From Halorubrum sp. GN11_10-6_MGM (GTDB lineage: Archaea; Halobacteriota; Halobacteria; Halobacteriales; Haloferacaceae), in the NCBI RefSeq assembly GCF_005435165.1, contig NZ_SGUC01000029.1, positions 1-38,236 on the forward strand: a stretch of 38,236 bases of DNA. Direction: 5' to 3'. The position numbers were made by a program, and so were the translations under genes. The notes under the pieces are model-generated. The model worked only from the letters and a program-made list of their open reading frames with translations. It searched no databases and was not told the origin of the DNA. Below are positions 22,313 through 37,227 of this stretch, in pieces (positions within the stretch are counted from its first letter, which is position 1; the number at the start of each line of letters is the position of its first letter).

Positions 22313-23197
22313 CTACGTCTCGCGCGTCCGCGATCCCGGTCGCGTCCGGACCCACGCCTCGCTCCGGTACTTCTCCGCGGCGATCTCCTCGGCCCGCTCC
22401 AGCTCGGCGTCCGTCCACGACCCGTCCGCATTCACGGTCGCGTCGGGCGCCGCTCCCGCCCAGTCGAGAAGCGCGGCCTCGACGGCCGCCACCGCGTCCG
22501 CGCGGTCGACGTCGACCAGCTCGTCCATCCCGACGACGCGCTCGCGGAACGCCCCGGGCGTCACCGGCGGGTCGGCGAAGACGCCGAGGTGGCGGCCGGC
22601 GTCCACCGAAAACGTCAGCGACCCGTGCTGGATCACCGCCTCTCGCTTTCGGTACTGCGCGTTGCCCGCGATCTTCCGGCCGTCGCCCGCCTCCTTCCCG
22701 TCGTCCGCGTCGCCGCTGTTCCCCACTCGCGCGACCACGTCGTGCGCCGGGTGAAGCTCGCGGAGGTAGCAGGCCGGGTGGTACAGCGCCGGCACCGACT
22801 CGTCGACGTAGTCCGCGTCGATTCCGAGCCGGTCGAACGCGTCGAGGACGGGCTCGCACAGGAGGTGGTAGCAGTCGAGCAGCTCGCCCGGAACCGTGTC
22901 GGCGGGCACCGCGATGGAGTAGGCGATGTCGCCGCGCCCGTCGTGGTAGATCCCGCCGCCGCCCGTCTGCCGGCGCGTCACGTCGATCCCCTCGCGCTCG
23001 CAGAACGCCCAGTCGACGGTCTCCGGGTCCTGATGACGGCCGAGGGTGAGACAGCTCGGCTCCCAGCGGTAGGTGCGAACGGTCGCCGGCCCGCCCGCCG
23101 CGGCGGTCTCGGCGGCCACCTCGTCCAACGCCATCTGCATCGGGCCGGGGCGGGCCTCCTCGCGGATCAGCTGCCAGTCGACGGCGGGCGCGGTCAT
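22313..23197 (-). CDS. Lipoate-protein ligase A family protein
   Basis: A 294-residue protein of the biotin/lipoate ligase fold. Characteristic stretches: [18 protein letters not shown] (family N-terminal strand), [20 protein letters not shown] (lipoate/AMP-binding Gly-rich loop) and [21 protein letters not shown], which holds the ligase lysine (K of KIAGNAQ). It attaches lipoate, or octanoate, to the swinging-arm domains of 2-oxoacid dehydrogenases or glycine cleavage H protein. The Asp/Gly-rich insert just before KIAGN ([15 protein letters not shown]) is unusual but lies in a surface loop. A bipartite partner (LplB) is not in the window. It is transcribed in the same direction as nfo and the P-type ATPase gene, with short gaps (64 and 62 bp). 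Confidence 0.9.
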
Positions 23198-23259: not shown

Positions 23260-25728
23260 TCAGTCGCCCAGCAGCGGACGCGAGGCGTTCAGCCCGACGA
23301 GCCCGCCGCAGACGACGACGGCGCCCATCGCCGTCAGCGGATTGAACAGCCCGACGAGCGCGACGGGGACCGCGATCCCGTTGTACACCAGCGCGAGACC
23401 GAGGTTCTGTCCCACACGCCGCCGCGCCGCCGCCGCGAGGTCGAAGGTCGTCTCGACGAGCGAAAGGTCGTCGTCGACGATCGCGATGTCAGCGGCGTCC
23501 GCCGCCAGCGCCGTCCCGCTCCCGAGCGAGATTCCGAGGTCGGCCGCAGCGAGTGCCGGCGCGTCGTTGGTCCCGTCGCCGACCATGGCGACGCGGTGGT
23601 CCCGCTGGAGCCGCCGGATCGCGGCCGTCTTCCCCTCGGGCGGAACCCCGGCGAAGACGTGGGCGACCGCCTCCTGCTCGGCGAAGAAGTCGGTCGCCTC
23701 GGGGTCGTCACCGGTGAGGACGACGACCTCGACGCCCCGTTCGCGGAGGCTCGCCACCGTCTCCGCCCAGCCCTCCCGGGGTTCGTCGCCCACGACGACG
23801 AGCCCCTCCGCCCGCCCGTCCCGACCGACGACGACCGGCAGGCGCCCGAACCCCCGTGCCTCCCGGGCCGCGCTCTCGACGTCCGCAGCGACGCGCCAGC
23901 CCTCGTCCACGAACAGACCGAGGCTCCCGACGAGCACCTCCCGGCCGTCGACAGTTCCGGACACGCCCTTCGCGTGCGTGCGGAACTCCCGTACGTCCGG
24001 CTGCGTCGCGTCCGCCCGGCCGTCGACTCCGTCGACGGCGGAGACGACGGCGGCCGCGGCCGGGTGCGCGGCCCGACGCTCCAAGGCGGCGGCCGCAGCG
24101 AGCGCGCCGTCGGGCGCGTCGGTCGAGACCACGTCCATCTCGCCGGTGGTGAGCGTGCCCGTCTTGTCGAAGACGACGACGTCGACTTCCCGGAGCCGTT
24201 CGAAGATTGTGTCGTCGAGGACGACGACCCCTCGCTCCATCGCGTCTCGGATGCTCGTCGCGACTGACAGCGGGGTCGCGACGCCAAGCGCCCACGGAGT
24301 CGCGACGAGCAGCCCGAGCAGCGCCGTCATCGCCGCCTCCGGTCCGCTCCGCCCCACGGCGAACGCGCCGACCCCGACCGTGACGGCGAGGGCGGCGAGG
24401 GCCCACGCAACGCGGGACGCGAGCCGGTCGGCCCGGCGTCGGATCCCGTGGTCGGCGCTCTGGATCGACCACAGCGAGTCGGTGATGCGGTCGACGCTGC
24501 TCGTCACCGGGTCACTGACCTCGACGACGGCGGCCCCGCCGCTGACGACGGCGCCGCCGACGACCTCGTCGCCGGTCCGCTTCGGGACCGGGAGCGCCTC
24601 GCCGGTGACGACCGCCTCCTTCACCGTACAGTCGTCGCCGACGAGCGTCCCGTCGACCGGGATCCGCTCTCCCGCGCGGACGAGGATCCGGTCGCCCGGC
24701 GCGAGCATGCCCACGGAGACCTGTCTCGGCTCGCCGTCCGCGTCCAGCCGCCGAGCCTCGCTCGCCTGCGACACCGTGAGCTCGGTGAGCCGATCCAGCG
24801 CTCCCCGCTTGACCGACGCCTCGAAGAAGGCGACCCCGGTCGCGACCGCCGCTACCACGAGCGTGAGGTCGTAGAAGATATCGTTGTCACCGAGCAGCAC
24901 CGCACCGGTCCCGTACGCGAACGCACTCACGGCGGTGACCGCGACGAGCACGTCCGTCGTCGGCCGCCGCATCTTCAGGCCGACGTACGCCCCGCGCAAC
25001 ACTGGCATCCCGGTGAAAAACAGGATGACCGCGGTCAACACGAAGTAGACGCGCAAAAACAGGAAGCCGCTCGCGCCGGTCAACCGAAACGCCCCCTCGA
25101 ACGCGTCGAGGAACGCGAGGTCCAAGTACGGCGCGAGGTGGGTCGGGTACATCACCGAGACGTACGGCACGAGCAGGAACGCACCAAAAACGATCCCAGC
25201 GGCGTACCGGAGCCCGAGGACCTCGTCGCTTCGGCGCTTCCGGCTCCCAGACATCTCCCGGCTTCGCCGCGCTTCCGCCGAGCCCGTCTCGGAGTCCGCC
25301 GCGTCGTCCCGAAGGAACGCCGTGTATCCCGTCCGACTCAGCGACTCGCGTAGTTCGCCGGCGGACACGGCCTCCGGGTCGTGGGCGACCCGGACCGTCT
25401 CCGTGACGTAGCTGGCCTCCGCGTCGGAGACCCCGGAAACGGAGTCGGCGACGGACTCGAGGTACTCCTCGCACGTCGGAGAGTGCATCCCGTCGATCCG
25501 GAAGAACGTCTCGACGCGGCCGTCGGGAGCCGCCGGCGACGCCGCCCTCGGACTCCCTCCCGGTTCCGACGCCGAATCCGCCCCTCCTTCCGCCGCCGGA
25601 CCGAGCGTGCGCCGGATGTCTCGGCAGCCGGAGCTACAGAACGCGGTCCCGCGTTCGCCGCGGACCGGTTCGCCGCGGATCGACCGCCCGCAGCAGCCGC
25701 ACTCTGCCGTCGCGTTCGATCGGTCCAT
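23260..25728 (-). CDS. P1B-type ATPase with N-terminal TRASH domain and altered metal sites (TPW)
   Basis: An 822-residue heavy-metal P-type ATPase. Residues 10-35 form a TRASH/zinc-finger-like site (C10, C12, C13, C31, C35). Next comes an HMA-like domain whose metal motif reads GMHSPTC (80-86), so the first Cys is lost. The ATPase core is intact: VTGEALPV (actuator), DKTGTLTTGE with phosphorylated D521, the HP motif of the nucleotide domain (RRAAHPAAA) and MVGDGTNDAPAL. The transmembrane site normally CPC is T477-P478-W479, and the last helices keep a Tyr-Asn (ALVYNG) but not the usual MxxSS. Copper export or oxidase loading is the family role, yet the lost cysteines make the ion uncertain. 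Start at MDRSNATAECGCC; the frame upstream is Arg-rich. Confidence 0.9.
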   Translation of the reverse strand: MDRSNATAECGCCGRSIRGEPVRGERGTAFCSSGCRDIRRTLGPAAEGGADSASEPGGSPRAASPAAPDGRVETFFRIDGMHSPTCEEYLESVADSVSGVSDAEASYVTETVRVAHDPEAVSAGELRESLSRTGYTAFLRDDAADSETGSAEARRSREMSGSRKRRSDEVLGLRYAAGIVFGAFLLVPYVSVMYPTHLAPYLDLAFLDAFEGAFRLTGASGFLFLRVYFVLTAVILFFTGMPVLRGAYVGLKMRRPTTDVLVAVTAVSAFAYGTGAVLLGDNDIFYDLTLVVAAVATGVAFFEASVKRGALDRLTELTVSQASEARRLDADGEPRQVSVGMLAPGDRILVRAGERIPVDGTLVGDDCTVKEAVVTGEALPVPKRTGDEVVGGAVVSGGAAVVEVSDPVTSSVDRITDSLWSIQSADHGIRRRADRLASRVAWALAALAVTVGVGAFAVGRSGPEAAMTALLGLLVATPWALGVATPLSVATSIRDAMERGVVVLDDTIFERLREVDVVVFDKTGTLTTGEMDVVSTDAPDGALAAAAALERRAAHPAAAAVVSAVDGVDGRADATQPDVREFRTHAKGVSGTVDGREVLVGSLGLFVDEGWRVAADVESAAREARGFGRLPVVVGRDGRAEGLVVVGDEPREGWAETVASLRERGVEVVVLTGDDPEATDFFAEQEAVAHVFAGVPPEGKTAAIRRLQRDHRVAMVGDGTNDAPALAAADLGISLGSGTALAADAADIAIVDDDLSLVETTFDLAAAARRRVGQNLGLALVYNGIAVPVALVGLFNPLTAMGAVVVCGGLVGLNASRPLLGD

Positions 25729-28382: not shown

Positions 28383-28814
28383 CTACATGTCCGCGACGAT
28401 CTCCTCGATTGCCTCGTCGTACTTGTCGGTAAGCATGACGAGTGCGTCCCTAATCTGGGGTTGGATAGCTTCGACCATCTCTTCGACAGCGGGGTCGGTA
28501 GAATCCGGTAAGGAGTACGAGAGGACGATCGTATTCGCGTGATAGTACTTCGTCGTCCCGCCTCGCCCCTCCTCGAAACGGACGACGTCGACGAGATCGG
28601 CGTCCCGCAGCTCGTTGATGTGGTGTCGCACCGTGTTCTCCGTCCGGTCGACGCCGCGGTCCGCCAGATTCTCGTGGACCTCGGTCGCGGTCAGGGCCTC
28701 CTCGCCCAGGATGTCCAGAATCATCGCTCGCATTGGTTCGTCGATCGCGTCCGAAACGCGAGTGTCGCGCACCGCGATGTCTTCGAGACGGTGATCGGTA
28801 CCGGAACCACTCAT
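28383..28814 (-). CDS. Winged-helix (ArsR-like) transcription regulator
   Basis: A 143-residue regulator. A winged helix occupies about residues 15-92 (MRAMILDILGEEALTATEVHENL, then ENTVRHHINELRDADLVDVV, recognition helix around TVRHHINEL). A helical C-terminal region, residues 105-143 (EEMVEAIQPQIRDALV), probably dimerises. It has no cysteine, so a metal would have to be bound by His, Asp and Glu, or the signal is another one. It is divergent from the HMA-P1B ATPase-FmdE operon, with 199 bp between start codons. That is the classic position of the operon's repressor. The start at 28814 was chosen because the frame upstream is not conserved-looking. Confidence 0.82.
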   Translation of the reverse strand: MSGSGTDHRLEDIAVRDTRVSDAIDEPMRAMILDILGEEALTATEVHENLADRGVDRTENTVRHHINELRDADLVDVVRFEEGRGGTTKYYHANTIVLSYSLPDSTDPAVEEMVEAIQPQIRDALVMLTDKYDEAIEEIVADM

Positions 28815-28971
28815 ACGAGAACTGAGAGTGAGCACGGGGGAAAAGGTGGCGGGACGCGGGTGAAGAGCACCTCTCGACACGGCGGATTCCGAACGGACCC
28901 ACACAAGTGAAAGCTCTAGACGACCCGTTTGACCGTTCCGACGACTCATTTCCACATTCAAACATATCATC

Positions 28972-28984
28972 TAAAAAATACTTA
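28972..28984 (+). promoter_or_regulatory. Promoter for the metal-export operon
   Basis: TAAAAAATACTTA lies 30-42 nt before the start of the HMA gene at 29014, in the divergent gap shared with the winged-helix regulator. The operator should overlap it; no clear palindrome is visible by eye. Confidence 0.45.
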
Positions 28985-29013
28985 TGGCAATACGGGCACT
29001 ACGTAGAATTGCA

Positions 29014-29229
29014 ATGAGCGACACAACCCAACTCCGTGTGATGGACTTCGACTGTCCGTCTTGTGCGAGTACCGTCGAACGCGCTCTCGGCAACGTCGAG
29101 GGCGTCGAGGATGTGGAGGTTCACTACTCGACCGGTCGTGTGGAAATCCACTATGACGACAGCCTCGCCGACCCCAACACGTTCGAACAGACCATCGAGA
29201 ACCAGGGCTACACCCCGCAACCCGCCTAA
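29014..29229 (+). CDS. HMA-domain metal-binding protein
   Basis: A 71-residue single HMA domain. The metal motif is DFDCPSCAST, a CxxC site in place of the copper-type GMxCxxC; such variants (often [DE]CxxC) are frequent in zinc, cadmium or lead-handling domains. The rest fits the fold (GVEDVEVHYSTGRVEIHYD, and ENQGYTP at the end). The ATPase gene begins 10 bp downstream and itself lacks an HMA domain, so this protein most likely acts as its detached N-terminal metal domain or delivery protein. The ATG at 29014 was chosen over one ten codons upstream, because the extra residues are basic and not part of the fold. Confidence 0.87.
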   Translation: MSDTTQLRVMDFDCPSCASTVERALGNVEGVEDVEVHYSTGRVEIHYDDSLADPNTFEQTIENQGYTPQPA

Positions 29230-29239
29230 ATAGAGACTT

Positions 29240-31159
29240 ATGAACACGCAACCCATCAAACGATACTACCGCAAACACCGGCAAGCTGTCATCGCCGGGA
29301 GCAGCGGCCTGTTGTACGGTGGCGGCTGGAGCCTCGGCTACCTTACCGGCTTCGACACCGCCAGCGCTGCGATCCTGATCCTGGCAGCCATCGTCGGCGG
29401 GTACGACATCGCCAAAACCGCCTACCACGAGGTCAAAAGCCAAACGCTCGGCATCAAGACGCTCGTGACCATCGCCGCCATCGGCGCCATCGGTATCGGT
29501 GCCTACTGGGAGGCCGCCGCCGTCGTCTTCCTGTTCAGCCTCGGCAGCTACCTCGAAGGGCGGACGATGCGGAAGACGCGGAACGCCCTCGAAGAACTCC
29601 TGGAGATGACCCCCGACACGGCGACGGTCCGTCGGGACGGTAACCTGCAAGAAGTCCCCGCCTGCGAGGTCGAAGACGGTGAAATCGTCGTTGTCAAGCC
29701 AGGCGAGAAGATTCCCGTCGACGGTGATGTCGTCGAGGGCGAGAGCGCCGTCAATCAAGCCCCCGTCACGGGTGAGAGTGCGCCCGTCCACAAAGCCGAC
29801 GGTGACGAAGTCTACGCCGGCACCATTAACCAGGAGGGCGCCATCGAGATCGAGACCACCGGTGCTGGGTCAGACACGACGCTCCAGCGGATTATCCGGC
29901 GCGTGGAGGAAGCCCAGGAAGCCCAGTCCCCGACGGAGAGCTTGATCGACCGCTTCGCGAAGTACTACACGCCGGGCGTGATCGCGCTCTCCATCGGTGC
30001 GTTCGCGGTCACGCAGGACGCGATGCTGTCGCTCACTCTGCTAGTAATCGGCTGCCCGGGCGCGCTCGTCATCGGCCCGCCGGTCAGCATCGTCTCGGCC
30101 ATCGGCAACGCCGCCCGCTCGGGCGTCCTTATGAAGGGCGGCGAACACCTCGAACGGGCCGGTAAGATCGACCTAGTAGCCGTCGACAAGACGGGCACGC
30201 TCACCAAAGGCGAGACCACCGTCGCCGACGTCGAAGGGTTCGGGACGAACGCCCGCGAGGCGCTCGAGCTTGCGGCCATCGCTGAGAAGAAGAGCGAACA
30301 CCACCTCGGTGACGCGATCGTCGCAGCTGCCCGAGACCGTCCCAGCGCGGTTACAGACGGAGGCACAGTCGCCGCCGAGACGGACGGAACGGGCGACGAA
30401 ACCCCGTCGATTCCCGACCCTGACGACTTCGACGTGGTCGCAGGCAAGGGCGTCGTCGCCTATCACGACGGCCGCGAGATTGTGGTTGGGAACCGCTCGC
30501 TGCTCGACGAGCGCGACATCGCTATCCCCGACGACGTCGCCGAGTACGTCCGTGAGCGTGAGGAGCGCGGCGAGACTGCTGTCCACGTCGTGCTCGATGG
30601 GACAGTTGTGGGCGTCGTCGCTATGCGCGACGAACTCCGCGAGGCCGCACCCGGTGTCGTCGCCCAGCTCCAGGATGCGGGCATCGAGACGGTGATGCTG
30701 ACCGGCGACAACGAACGAGTTGCTGCTGCGGTCGCGGCGGAGGTCGGTATCGACGACTACCGGGCCGAACTCCTTCCGGAGGACAAACAGGCCGTGATCG
30801 AGGAGTTCCGTGAGGACCACGTTGTGGCGATGGTCGGGGATGGCATCAACGACGCGCCGTCGCTGGCGACTGCCGACGTCGGGATCGCGATGGGCGCGGC
30901 CGGGACTGATACCGCCATTGAGACGGCGGACATGGCGTTGATGGCCGACGACCTCGAACGCATCCCGTACGCGGTAACGCTCAGCAAGGCGACCCGGTGG
31001 AACATCTACGAGAACGTCGGCGCGGCAGTGCTGACGGTGACGGTCCTGCTTGCGGGCGTGCTGACGAGCTACGTCACGCTCGCGGCGGGGATGCTCGTCC
31101 ACGAGGCCAGCGTGCTCGCGGTCATCCTCAACGGCATGCGCCTGCTCCGGTACGAATAG
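29240..31159 (+). CDS. P1B-type heavy-metal ATPase with CPG motif
   Basis: A 639-residue heavy-metal exporter of the cytoplasmic membrane. It lacks an N-terminal HMA domain, supplied by the gene 10 bp upstream. Catalytic parts are complete: PVTGESAPV (actuator), DKTGTLTKGE with phosphorylated D316, an HH-type variant (KKSEHHLGDA) near the usual HP position, and MVGDGINDAPSL. The membrane metal site is C272-P273-G274 instead of CPC. The last helix reads AAGMLVHEASVLAVILN, where the His-Glu resembles the HEGGT of cobalt/zinc/iron-type P1B-4 pumps. Zn, Cd, Co or Fe export therefore looks likelier than Cu. An FmdE-like gene follows after 32 bp. Confidence 0.92.
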   Translation: MNTQPIKRYYRKHRQAVIAGSSGLLYGGGWSLGYLTGFDTASAAILILAAIVGGYDIAKTAYHEVKSQTLGIKTLVTIAAIGAIGIGAYWEAAAVVFLFSLGSYLEGRTMRKTRNALEELLEMTPDTATVRRDGNLQEVPACEVEDGEIVVVKPGEKIPVDGDVVEGESAVNQAPVTGESAPVHKADGDEVYAGTINQEGAIEIETTGAGSDTTLQRIIRRVEEAQEAQSPTESLIDRFAKYYTPGVIALSIGAFAVTQDAMLSLTLLVIGCPGALVIGPPVSIVSAIGNAARSGVLMKGGEHLERAGKIDLVAVDKTGTLTKGETTVADVEGFGTNAREALELAAIAEKKSEHHLGDAIVAAARDRPSAVTDGGTVAAETDGTGDETPSIPDPDDFDVVAGKGVVAYHDGREIVVGNRSLLDERDIAIPDDVAEYVREREERGETAVHVVLDGTVVGVVAMRDELREAAPGVVAQLQDAGIETVMLTGDNERVAAAVAAEVGIDDYRAELLPEDKQAVIEEFREDHVVAMVGDGINDAPSLATADVGIAMGAAGTDTAIETADMALMADDLERIPYAVTLSKATRWNIYENVGAAVLTVTVLLAGVLTSYVTLAAGMLVHEASVLAVILNGMRLLRYE

Positions 31160-31191
31160 AATCACCAACCAATCCACTCGCAACCATACCA

Positions 31192-31851
31192 ATGTCAGAG
31201 AACACGATGCCGACCGAAACGAACCGCACTGAATCGAACTGGACCGTTGAATACGATGTCGAACCGATCCGGATCCGTGATCCCGTCGCGGAAGCGCTGG
31301 CCGTCCTCGAACCCGGCGAGCCGTTTATCGTGACCTACGAGGACGTCGTGAAGGCTGCGGGGCACTCCTGTCCGACCGCTTCGGGCGCGTATCGCATCGC
31401 CCAGCTCGGGCTGGACGCACTGTACCCGGACGAGGTTCCCGTCCGCAGCGACATCGAGGTGCTGGCGGGCGGTCCGCGTGACCACGCCACCTACGGTGTG
31501 ATGGGACGCCTCATCTCGTATGTGACCGGCGCGGCCCAGGAGGACGGTTTCGGTGGGCTCGCCGGTAGTCACGGTGATCGGACGAACATGCTGACGTTCG
31601 ACGCGTTCGACCCCGATAGTGCTGCCCCGACGTTCCGCTTCCGCCGGACCGACACCGACGAGACCGTCGAGGTGACCTATCACGTCGGCGACGTTCCGAA
31701 TGGCGGGCCAGCTCTCAGCAACCTCCAACAAATCATTGACGGAACAGCGAGCGAAGACGACCGCGAGCTATTCGCCGACGTGTGGCACGGCCGCGTCCAG
31801 AGCGTTCTCTCCGACGACTCGCTATTCACCGTAACGACCGTTGAAACCTAG
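31192..31851 (+). CDS. FmdE-like metal-binding protein in the export operon
   Basis: A 219-residue soluble protein. Residues about 55-85 (VKAAGHSCPTASGAYRIAQLGL) resemble the FmdE domain of tungsten/molybdenum formylmethanofuran dehydrogenase operons, whose GHxCPG-type motif is a predicted metal site; here it is GHSCPT. Two further His-containing stretches (GGPRDHATYGV; AGSHGDRTN) could complete a site. The C-terminal part has DVPNGGPALSNLQQIIDGTASEDD. No methanogenesis gene is present, so a role in formylmethanofuran metabolism is unlikely. The position, 32 bp after the ATPase, suggests metal storage, sensing or delivery. The ATG at 31192 was chosen as the first after the ATPase stop; MPTETN five codons on is possible. 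Confidence 0.72.
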   Translation: MSENTMPTETNRTESNWTVEYDVEPIRIRDPVAEALAVLEPGEPFIVTYEDVVKAAGHSCPTASGAYRIAQLGLDALYPDEVPVRSDIEVLAGGPRDHATYGVMGRLISYVTGAAQEDGFGGLAGSHGDRTNMLTFDAFDPDSAAPTFRFRRTDTDETVEVTYHVGDVPNGGPALSNLQQIIDGTASEDDRELFADVWHGRVQSVLSDDSLFTVTTVET

Positions 31852-36429: not shown

Positions 36430-37227
36430 TCAGTGCCCCATCCCGCCGAGCGGCTGGTAGTGGGGAAACATCGGGTGTGGGAGGTGGACGCCGAGCGCCA
36501 TCAGCCCGTGCGCGAACAAGACGTACCCCAGTACGACGAACACCACACCGAGCAGCCGATGGACGCGACGCCGGTGCGCAACGTCGATCGACTGGATAAT
36601 CGTTCCATAGAGGAAGACAGCCGGGATCGTCCCGATACCGAGGGCACCGAGAGCGATTCCTCCAGTGGTGGGGGAGCCGCTCGCGAAGGCAAACAGATAC
36701 GCGGGATACAGCATCGGGCAGGGAAGAAACGCGTGGACGGCGCCGAGCCCGACAATACTCGGGCTGTTGACGTGCCGGTGAACTCTCGTTGCGAGCCACG
36801 ACGTGACGCGCTGGACGCCCGGGATACGAATATCGCCTCCACTTCCACCGATGACGTACCGAACGCCCGTCGCCACAATGAATCCCCCTACCGCAAGACC
36901 GACAGCACCCCGTAGGAGATCAGCGATCGGTGTCAGTTGGTCGGCGGTGACGAATACGACGCTTCCGAGTGCACCGAAAAGGGCCCCAAGAATCGCGTAC
37001 GTCGTCGCCCGACCGATATTGAACAGGAAGTGCTGGCGAACCTCATAGGTCGTGAGATGACCGGCACGCCCGTCGTTGGCTGTTACCGTCCCACCGTCAG
37101 GCTGCGGCGCCATTTGCTTCGAGTACATCGTCACTAACGGTCCACACATCCCGATACAGTGTGCGCCGCCCAGTACGCCGATAAGAACGAAGAGTACGAC
37201 GTCAATTCGGAACAGTGACTCGATCAT
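36430..37227 (-). CDS. SafE/UreH-type membrane protein (cytochrome/copper assembly family)
   Basis: A 265-residue multi-pass membrane protein with about six helices. The first helix has GGAHCIGMCGPL and the matching half has HAFLPCPMLYPAY, the paired cysteine-containing motifs of the TauE/SafE-like, UreH/CcdA-related family. Members often sit with cbb3 oxidase or copper-protein assembly genes, and the Cys/Met residues suit copper or electron transfer. A His-rich C-terminus (HLPHPMFPHYQPLGGMGH) strengthens a metal role. The loop after helix 1 contains a 25-residue polar insert. The NosL-like pseudogene lies downstream on the same strand, so both probably belong to one copper-delivery cluster. 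A TnpB element lies directly upstream. Confidence 0.85.
   Translation of the reverse strand: MIESLFRIDVVLFVLIGVLGGAHCIGMCGPLVTMYSKQMAPQPDGGTVTANDGRAGHLTTYEVRQHFLFNIGRATTYAILGALFGALGSVVFVTADQLTPIADLLRGAVGLAVGGFIVATGVRYVIGGSGGDIRIPGVQRVTSWLATRVHRHVNSPSIVGLGAVHAFLPCPMLYPAYLFAFASGSPTTGGIALGALGIGTIPAVFLYGTIIQSIDVAHRRRVHRLLGVVFVVLGYVLFAHGLMALGVHLPHPMFPHYQPLGGMGH

Follow-up and report, generated by a model that had tools for sequence, protein, structure and literature searches.

A haloarchaeal clade of P1B-type ATPases with Pro-Trp at the membrane copper site and extensive loss of copper ligands

Described P1B systems and the ATPase of the window

Specificity of P1B-type ATPases is commonly read from the ligands located in transmembrane helices 6 to 8, and the subclasses bearing SPC or TPC retain Cys or His after the proline as well as helix 7-8 ligands of their own. 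A P-type ATPase may also supply energy to a partner, the main substrate not being carried by the ATPase alone, as in the case of KdpB (P1A). The entry site of Legionella pneumophila CopA is composed of Met148, Glu205 and Asp337 (PMC7558416). A Rhodobacter capsulatus CcoI double mutant with Ala in place of the two CPC cysteines was shown to have lost Cu+ transport and oxidase assembly, oxidase activity being about 2%, whereas its ATPase activity is lowered by only about 30%, with about 70% left (PMC8475189); thus, ATP hydrolysis can run without copper. Rcc01042 of the same bacterium is described as a P1B-like ATPase devoid of the typical transmembrane metal-binding motifs and without a copper phenotype (PMC7558416).

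The window, by which we mean the whole analysed stretch of 38,236 nucleotides of Halorubrum DNA, encodes a protein with TPW at the position of CPC (Table 1). We refer to such proteins, in which Pro-Trp is preceded by Ser, Thr, Cys or Ala, as xPW. Pfam HMA, E1-E2 ATPase and hydrolase domains were recognized in it. Its score against the general P1B model TIGR01525 was 385.9 bits (cut-off 346.25), and that against the NCBIfam copper model TIGR01511 was 333.8 bits, below the cut-off of 397. The five xPW proteins tested with the latter model, namely this one and four further members, gave 334, 373, 358, 337 and 331 bits, all under the cut-off, which two CPC relatives used as controls exceeded (433 and 423); the TIGR01525 cut-off was exceeded by all the tested proteins, xPW and CPC alike. 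The predicted fold is that of a P1B ATPase (mean pLDDT 80) with a helix break at residues 477-480, as expected for the ion site, its best Foldseek matches being ATP7B and CopA, and upon alignment with the solved A. fulgidus CopA, TPW falls on CPC and YN on YN. By motifs, architecture and TIGR01525, the protein belongs to class P1B.

The initial annotation placed the gene correctly (the strand is minus), and its description of intact TGE, DKTGT, HP and GDGTND motifs, of TPW, of GMHSPTC and of the missing MxxSS was confirmed; TGD (residues 672-674) is intact too, and the last helix reads VVVCGGLVGLNASR. Its statement that the TRASH cysteines are canonical holds for four of the five, as the CxxC...FCCxGC pattern of the parent clade is changed to FCSxGC in the xPW clade.

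Table 1. Positions of the features discussed, in window coordinates
Feature	Position	Strand	Remarks
xPW-type P1B ATPase gene, 822 aa (TRASH-like, HMA and P1B core)	23260..25728	-	motifs, profile models, predicted fold
TRASH-like cysteine cluster, residues 10-35	25624..25701	-	C10, C13, C31, C35 kept; parent-clade C32 replaced by Ser
HMA motif GMHSPTC, residues 80-86	25471..25491	-	without first Cys
T258	24955..24957	-	at putative entry-site Met of parent clade (53/54), by position mapping
C367, actuator domain	24628..24630	-	48/48 xPW vs 1/54 CPC
TGE, residues 375-377	24598..24606	-	actuator dephosphorylation motif, intact
T477-P478-W479	24292..24300	-	at Cys-Pro-Cys site
DKTGT, residues 521-525	24154..24168	-	phosphorylation motif, intact
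HP, residues 555-556	24061..24066	-	nucleotide domain, intact
GDGTND, residues 717-722	23563..23580	-	hinge motif, intact
L778	23395..23397	-	Trp in 54/54 CPC relatives
Y782-N783	23380..23385	-	helix 7 YN, kept
VVVCG, residues 804-808	23305..23319	-	at MxxSS site of CPC relatives
SafE/DsbD_2 membrane protein gene	36433..37227	-	95% identical to SafE of the G032 SCO-NosLDFY cluster
Lipoate/biotin protein ligase family gene	22313..23197	-	downstream, 62 bases past ATPase stop

Among the known systems, CcoI/FixI (CopA2-type) shares with xPW proteins ancestry, an N-terminal cysteine domain followed by HMA, the eight-helix P1B core, intact motifs of the catalytic cycle and occasional linkage to oxidase maturation genes. 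The xPW proteins differ in the lack of CPC, MxxSS, one HMA Cys, one TRASH Cys and the entry Met, in the invariant Trp479, and in the absence of an upstream SafE gene. Accordingly, the window protein descends from the TRASH- and HMA-bearing CPC clade, but has neither intact N-terminal metal sites (SxxC in HMA, FCSxGC in TRASH) nor CPC, and its gene does not form an operon with SafE/DsbD_2 and oxidase genes. With CopA (CopA1-type, the detoxifying P1B-1 Cu+ exporter) it has in common the fold, the engine and YN of helix 7, but not CPC of helix 6 or MxxSS of helix 8, nor a TIGR01511 score above the cut-off. CopB (P1B-3, CPH) and the P1B-4 and P1B-5 pumps (SPC/TPC) resemble xPW in having a motif altered around a conserved Pro; however, they retain Cys or His after this residue, where all 48 xPW proteins have Trp. 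KdpB belongs to another subfamily and acts by partner logic, whereas no partner subunit was identified for xPW, and Rcc01042, a bacterial protein, resembles xPW by description only. A search of the open literature yielded no description of xPW proteins as a group; this is weak evidence, since the search did not extend to the bulk of subscription papers, the main P1B classification among them.

Origin, maintenance and residue changes of the xPW clade

Relatives were sampled from 59 genomes near that of the window and from 80 loci of a public genome collection, and 102 full or nearly full haloarchaeal sequences were aligned; 48 of them are xPW and 54 bear CPC. When the motif columns were omitted, all 48 xPW proteins formed a single clade with support of 100, and a mixture-model tree (45 rows, all ligand columns removed) recovered this clade at 100/100, with a single change of state in every bootstrap tree. 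In both trees the clade sits within canonical CPC proteins, indicating that the ligand loss is derived; CPH paralogues made a separate long-branch outgroup in the larger tree. At the level of sequence, ancestry and single origin of the group are thus well established. The first residue of the motif switched several times between Ser, Thr, Cys and Ala, and Trp is invariant (48/48 xPW versus Cys479 in 54/54 CPC proteins, a contrast well outside what chance would give), so that the clade-wide conservation proposed as a check in the initial annotation was found for the tryptophan. A sequencing error or local mutation as the source of TPW, which CPC-bearing orthologues would have implied, is ruled out by the orthologues, as TPW recurs in other Halorubrum and SPW, CPW or APW in wider relatives.

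A PWALGxAT DNA pattern matched at least 50 of 293 Halobacteriales genomes, belonging to at least 18 of 87 genera (these counts are lower bounds, since the pattern overlooks divergent members), with one match of the reversed control; each of the ten matches inspected proved to be a P1B ATPase with xPW. The same pattern gave no match in about 200 genomes sampled from the rest of the phylum. Across some 650 codons, most comparisons within SPW gave dN/dS of 0.07-0.17 and those between close TPW genes gave 0.10-0.12, dS being partly saturated in cross-group pairs. The xPW proteins are thus maintained under purifying selection. A relative from H. tebenquichense (locus L130, 5799-7473; the same as in L068 and L017) is devoid of TRASH, HMA and the first helices, and its frame, which follows an HxlR-type regulator, opens with an acidic stretch instead; lacking the N-terminal third, this copy may be a truncation or a pseudogene.

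Column-by-column comparison of both groups revealed how far the changes extend beyond CPC. In the N-terminal part, Cys32 of TRASH, present in 53/53 CPC rows, is left in 4/48 xPW rows (Ser in 43, Arg in one), and HMA Cys83 decreases from 53/53 to 4/48. Met183 (51/54 in CPC) and Met258 (53/54) are absent from all 48 xPW rows, and Met186 drops from 53/54 to 5/48; by its position, Met258 would correspond to the entry-site methionine of Cu+-ATPases, a site described in PMC7558416. Further along, Cys477 passes from 54/54 to 7/48, Cys479, Met804 and Trp778 are found in none of the 48 and Ser808 in two. As judged from the alignment, sulphur ligands are gone along the whole copper path of the clade, in the case of Cys32, Cys83 and Cys477 in most members. 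A few Haloarcula-type proteins combine CPW with an intact HMA (GMHCATC) and mostly FCCxGC, hence appearance of Trp479 and loss of MxxSS can precede the other ligand losses; together with SPW and TPW members without intact HMA, they provide a graded test series.

All catalytic residues are kept in 48/48 xPW proteins, save that one Thr of TGD is replaced by Ser. Conserved too are D287, E303, D434, Tyr782, Asn783, Asn814 and Arg817, with YN of helix 7 found in 47/48, the remaining protein being truncated. The near-fixed gains are Trp479, Phe184, Cys367 in the actuator domain and Ala400, and position 488 is Ser or Thr in 48/48 xPW versus Ala in 54/54 CPC proteins. Fixed gains within the membrane are therefore aromatic (W479, F184) or confined to one hydroxyl position (488), and no new invariant Cys, His, Met or charged residue was found there across the 48 rows. 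The suggestion of the initial annotation that the subgroup handles another ion thus gained no specific support, and the lack of a new invariant membrane metal ligand, with Ala tolerated at 477, would be odd for a specific ion site. Its broader proposal, a subgroup other than copper exporters, is supported by a single clade combining wholesale copper-ligand loss, an intact engine and purifying selection.

Genomic neighbourhoods of CPC and xPW genes

The parent CPC clade can be regarded as CcoI/FixI-like (CopA2-type). A SafE/DsbD_2 gene was detected at 30 of 44 CPC loci, in many cases directly upstream of the ATPase gene, versus none of 50 xPW loci, and in Haloarcula halophila the CPC gene is adjoined by ba3 oxidase and halocyanin genes. 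Two CPC paralogues are encoded in the genome containing the window; the first adjoins a cytochrome oxidase subunit II-like gene and the second comes after a SafE gene. The xPW gene is thus an extra paralogue, on which normal copper supply to oxidases need not depend. Genomes bearing xPW keep CPC paralogues and often CopB.

Plasmid-borne xPW genes occur in Halorubrum, Haloarcula, Halobacterium, Salarchaeum, Haloprofundus and Salinigranum, where they are accompanied by varied sets of genes for CopB (CPH), CopZ, plastocyanin-type cupredoxin, multicopper oxidase, DsbA/DsbB, CtaA and cbb3- or bd-type oxidases. The Natronorubrum daqingense gene is adjoined by those for SCO, CcdA, TlpA and a 4Fe-4S membrane protein, and the Halovenus one by DsbA/B and multicopper oxidase genes. 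Upstream of a TPW orthologue (genome G032) there are SCO1/SenC, then NosY/NosF-like ABC genes, a NosL-NosD fusion and SafE. In locus L129 (11970-14013), where one gene joins the domains of NosL and NosD and is accompanied by NosF/NosY-like genes and SCO, no nosZ was noticed within the neighbouring 17 kb.

The idea of a function in assembly, one of those raised in the initial annotation, obtained circumstantial support in some subclades from the plasmid copper and oxidase islands, including cbb3 or bd genes near some xPW genes, and from SCO and NosLDFY by the TPW orthologue. On the other hand, copper and respiratory genes are absent at about 28 of 50 xPW loci, chiefly chromosomal ones of Natrialbaceae and Halolamina, and no copper neighbourhood was seen around the Halovivax gene or immediately around the window gene. 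As the plasmid islands are related to one another, neighbour counts do not represent independent events, and independent associations are few, perhaps four to six. A connection with assembly may hold for mobile islands only.

The SafE gene of the window lies about 11 kb from the TPW gene, with transposase-like genes between them, and is possibly a displaced remnant of the SCO-NosLDFY neighbourhood. Two transposase-like genes occupy the segment 32240-35476, between the xPW region and the SafE/NosL-like genes at the right end, which suggests an insertion-sequence-rich junction.

Two candidate partners were rejected. The lipoate ligase gene does not adjoin the orthologues examined. A membrane protein of 380-410 aa with a CACGCCG motif, for which Pfam and NCBIfam gave no match, is encoded convergently to xPW at 21 of 50 loci (e.g., L033, L035, L112, L036) and was found in 80 of 293 Halobacteriales genomes; it is absent from the genome of the window and common without xPW, hence it is not a universal partner.

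Possible function of the xPW ATPases

Loss of ligands, integrity of the engine, selection and the island context are well documented by comparison of genes and proteins, and from these we infer loss of Cu+ transport, transport of something else and a physiological role. The xPW family very probably no longer serves as a copper pump and, by the precedent of the CcoI mutant, should hydrolyse ATP without moving Cu+. Our preferred reading, held tentatively and with a little less than even confidence, is that of a CcoI/FixI-derived P1B ATPase which runs its ATP cycle, has lost the Cu+ path and is coupled to a non-thiophilic substrate. A single ancestral event would have taken the copper path apart, with the ligands still left drifting afterwards. 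ATP would continue to drive the E1/E2 phosphoenzyme cycle, with no Cu+ passing via the known transmembrane sites, and the substrate now coupled to this cycle would be a hard ion, protons or some small solute other than a metal. The conduit might be formed by carboxylates that were retained (D287, E303, D434), Tyr-Asn and new hydroxyls (S/T488 and, in most members, T258 and T265), and Trp479 would fill the former copper site. In the plasmid lineages, the protein would probably help extracytoplasmic copper and respiratory enzymes to mature or protect them. Against this reading speak the lack of a new invariant metal-type ligand in the membrane, the tolerance of Ala at 477 and the loci without copper neighbourhoods. 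It is plausible, if still short of probable, that the clade abandoned metal altogether; xPW would then be the first P1B pump to carry a non-metal substrate, or else would use ATP to regulate or energise the maturation of cuproenzymes and oxidases without transporting anything.

Trp in the site could also mean that the path is simply plugged and nothing is transported. A pseudo-pump of this kind would regulate or scaffold the maturation of cuproproteins or oxidases, or energise a partner membrane protein in it by KdpB-like logic; alternatively, it would sense copper by means of the remaining TRASH cysteines. The bulky invariant Trp479, loss of Trp778 from helix 7, small residues in place of the helix 8 ligands, lack of new ligands, maturation genes in the neighbourhood and the four retained TRASH cysteines are consistent with this explanation, which we nevertheless consider somewhat less likely than the preferred one, as there is no universal partner gene (the commonest neighbour, the 400-aa membrane protein, is missing from the genome of the window) and the retained entry and exit carboxylates suggest a working conduit.

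That Cu+ (or Ag+) is still transported by way of changed ligands, such as Trp through cation-pi interaction plus whatever Cys or Met is left, perhaps with reduced affinity, is quite improbable. Descent from CcoI-like pumps, the copper-gene islands, the cysteine retained by CPW members and the intact HMA and TRASH of Haloarcula-type proteins would fit it; however, most members lack both copper sites of the membrane, the entry Met is lost in 48/48 and the HMA Cys in 44/48, the same genomes contain CPC paralogues and often CopB, and CcoI CPC mutants do not transport (PMC8475189). Transport of another transition metal of soft or borderline character (Zn, Co, Ni, Fe) is still harder to envisage: SPC and TPC variants do occur in other P1B subclasses (subclass table in PMC7558416), but neither Cys or His after Pro nor any helix 7-8 ligand is fixed in xPW. 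That the gene is a decaying duplicate heading for a pseudogene, as the H. tebenquichense copy without N-terminal domains and first helices might imply, is hardly credible and for the clade as a whole already contradicted by open reading frames in 48 members, fixed catalytic residues, dN/dS of about 0.1 and wide spread.

The annotation "cation-translocating" or "heavy metal translocating" ATPase in haloarchaea hides a group which probably does not move copper. A natural clade without the helix 6-8 ligands, with Trp fixed and selection acting on an intact engine, offers a ready-made test of how ATP hydrolysis is coupled to ion binding.

A separate observation concerns the second P1B ATPase of the window (29240-31159, plus strand), which has CPG (GCPGALVIGPPVS) where P1B-2 pumps carry CPC, and which represents a second, independent loss of a CPC cysteine. 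It is part of a cassette (28383-31848) composed of a divergent helix-turn-helix regulator, a small HMA protein, the CPG ATPase and a 219-aa protein bearing the GHSCPTASGAYR motif. A similar cassette, likewise with CPG, lies beside an integrase on plasmids of Halorubrum trapanicum and Halobacterium noricense.
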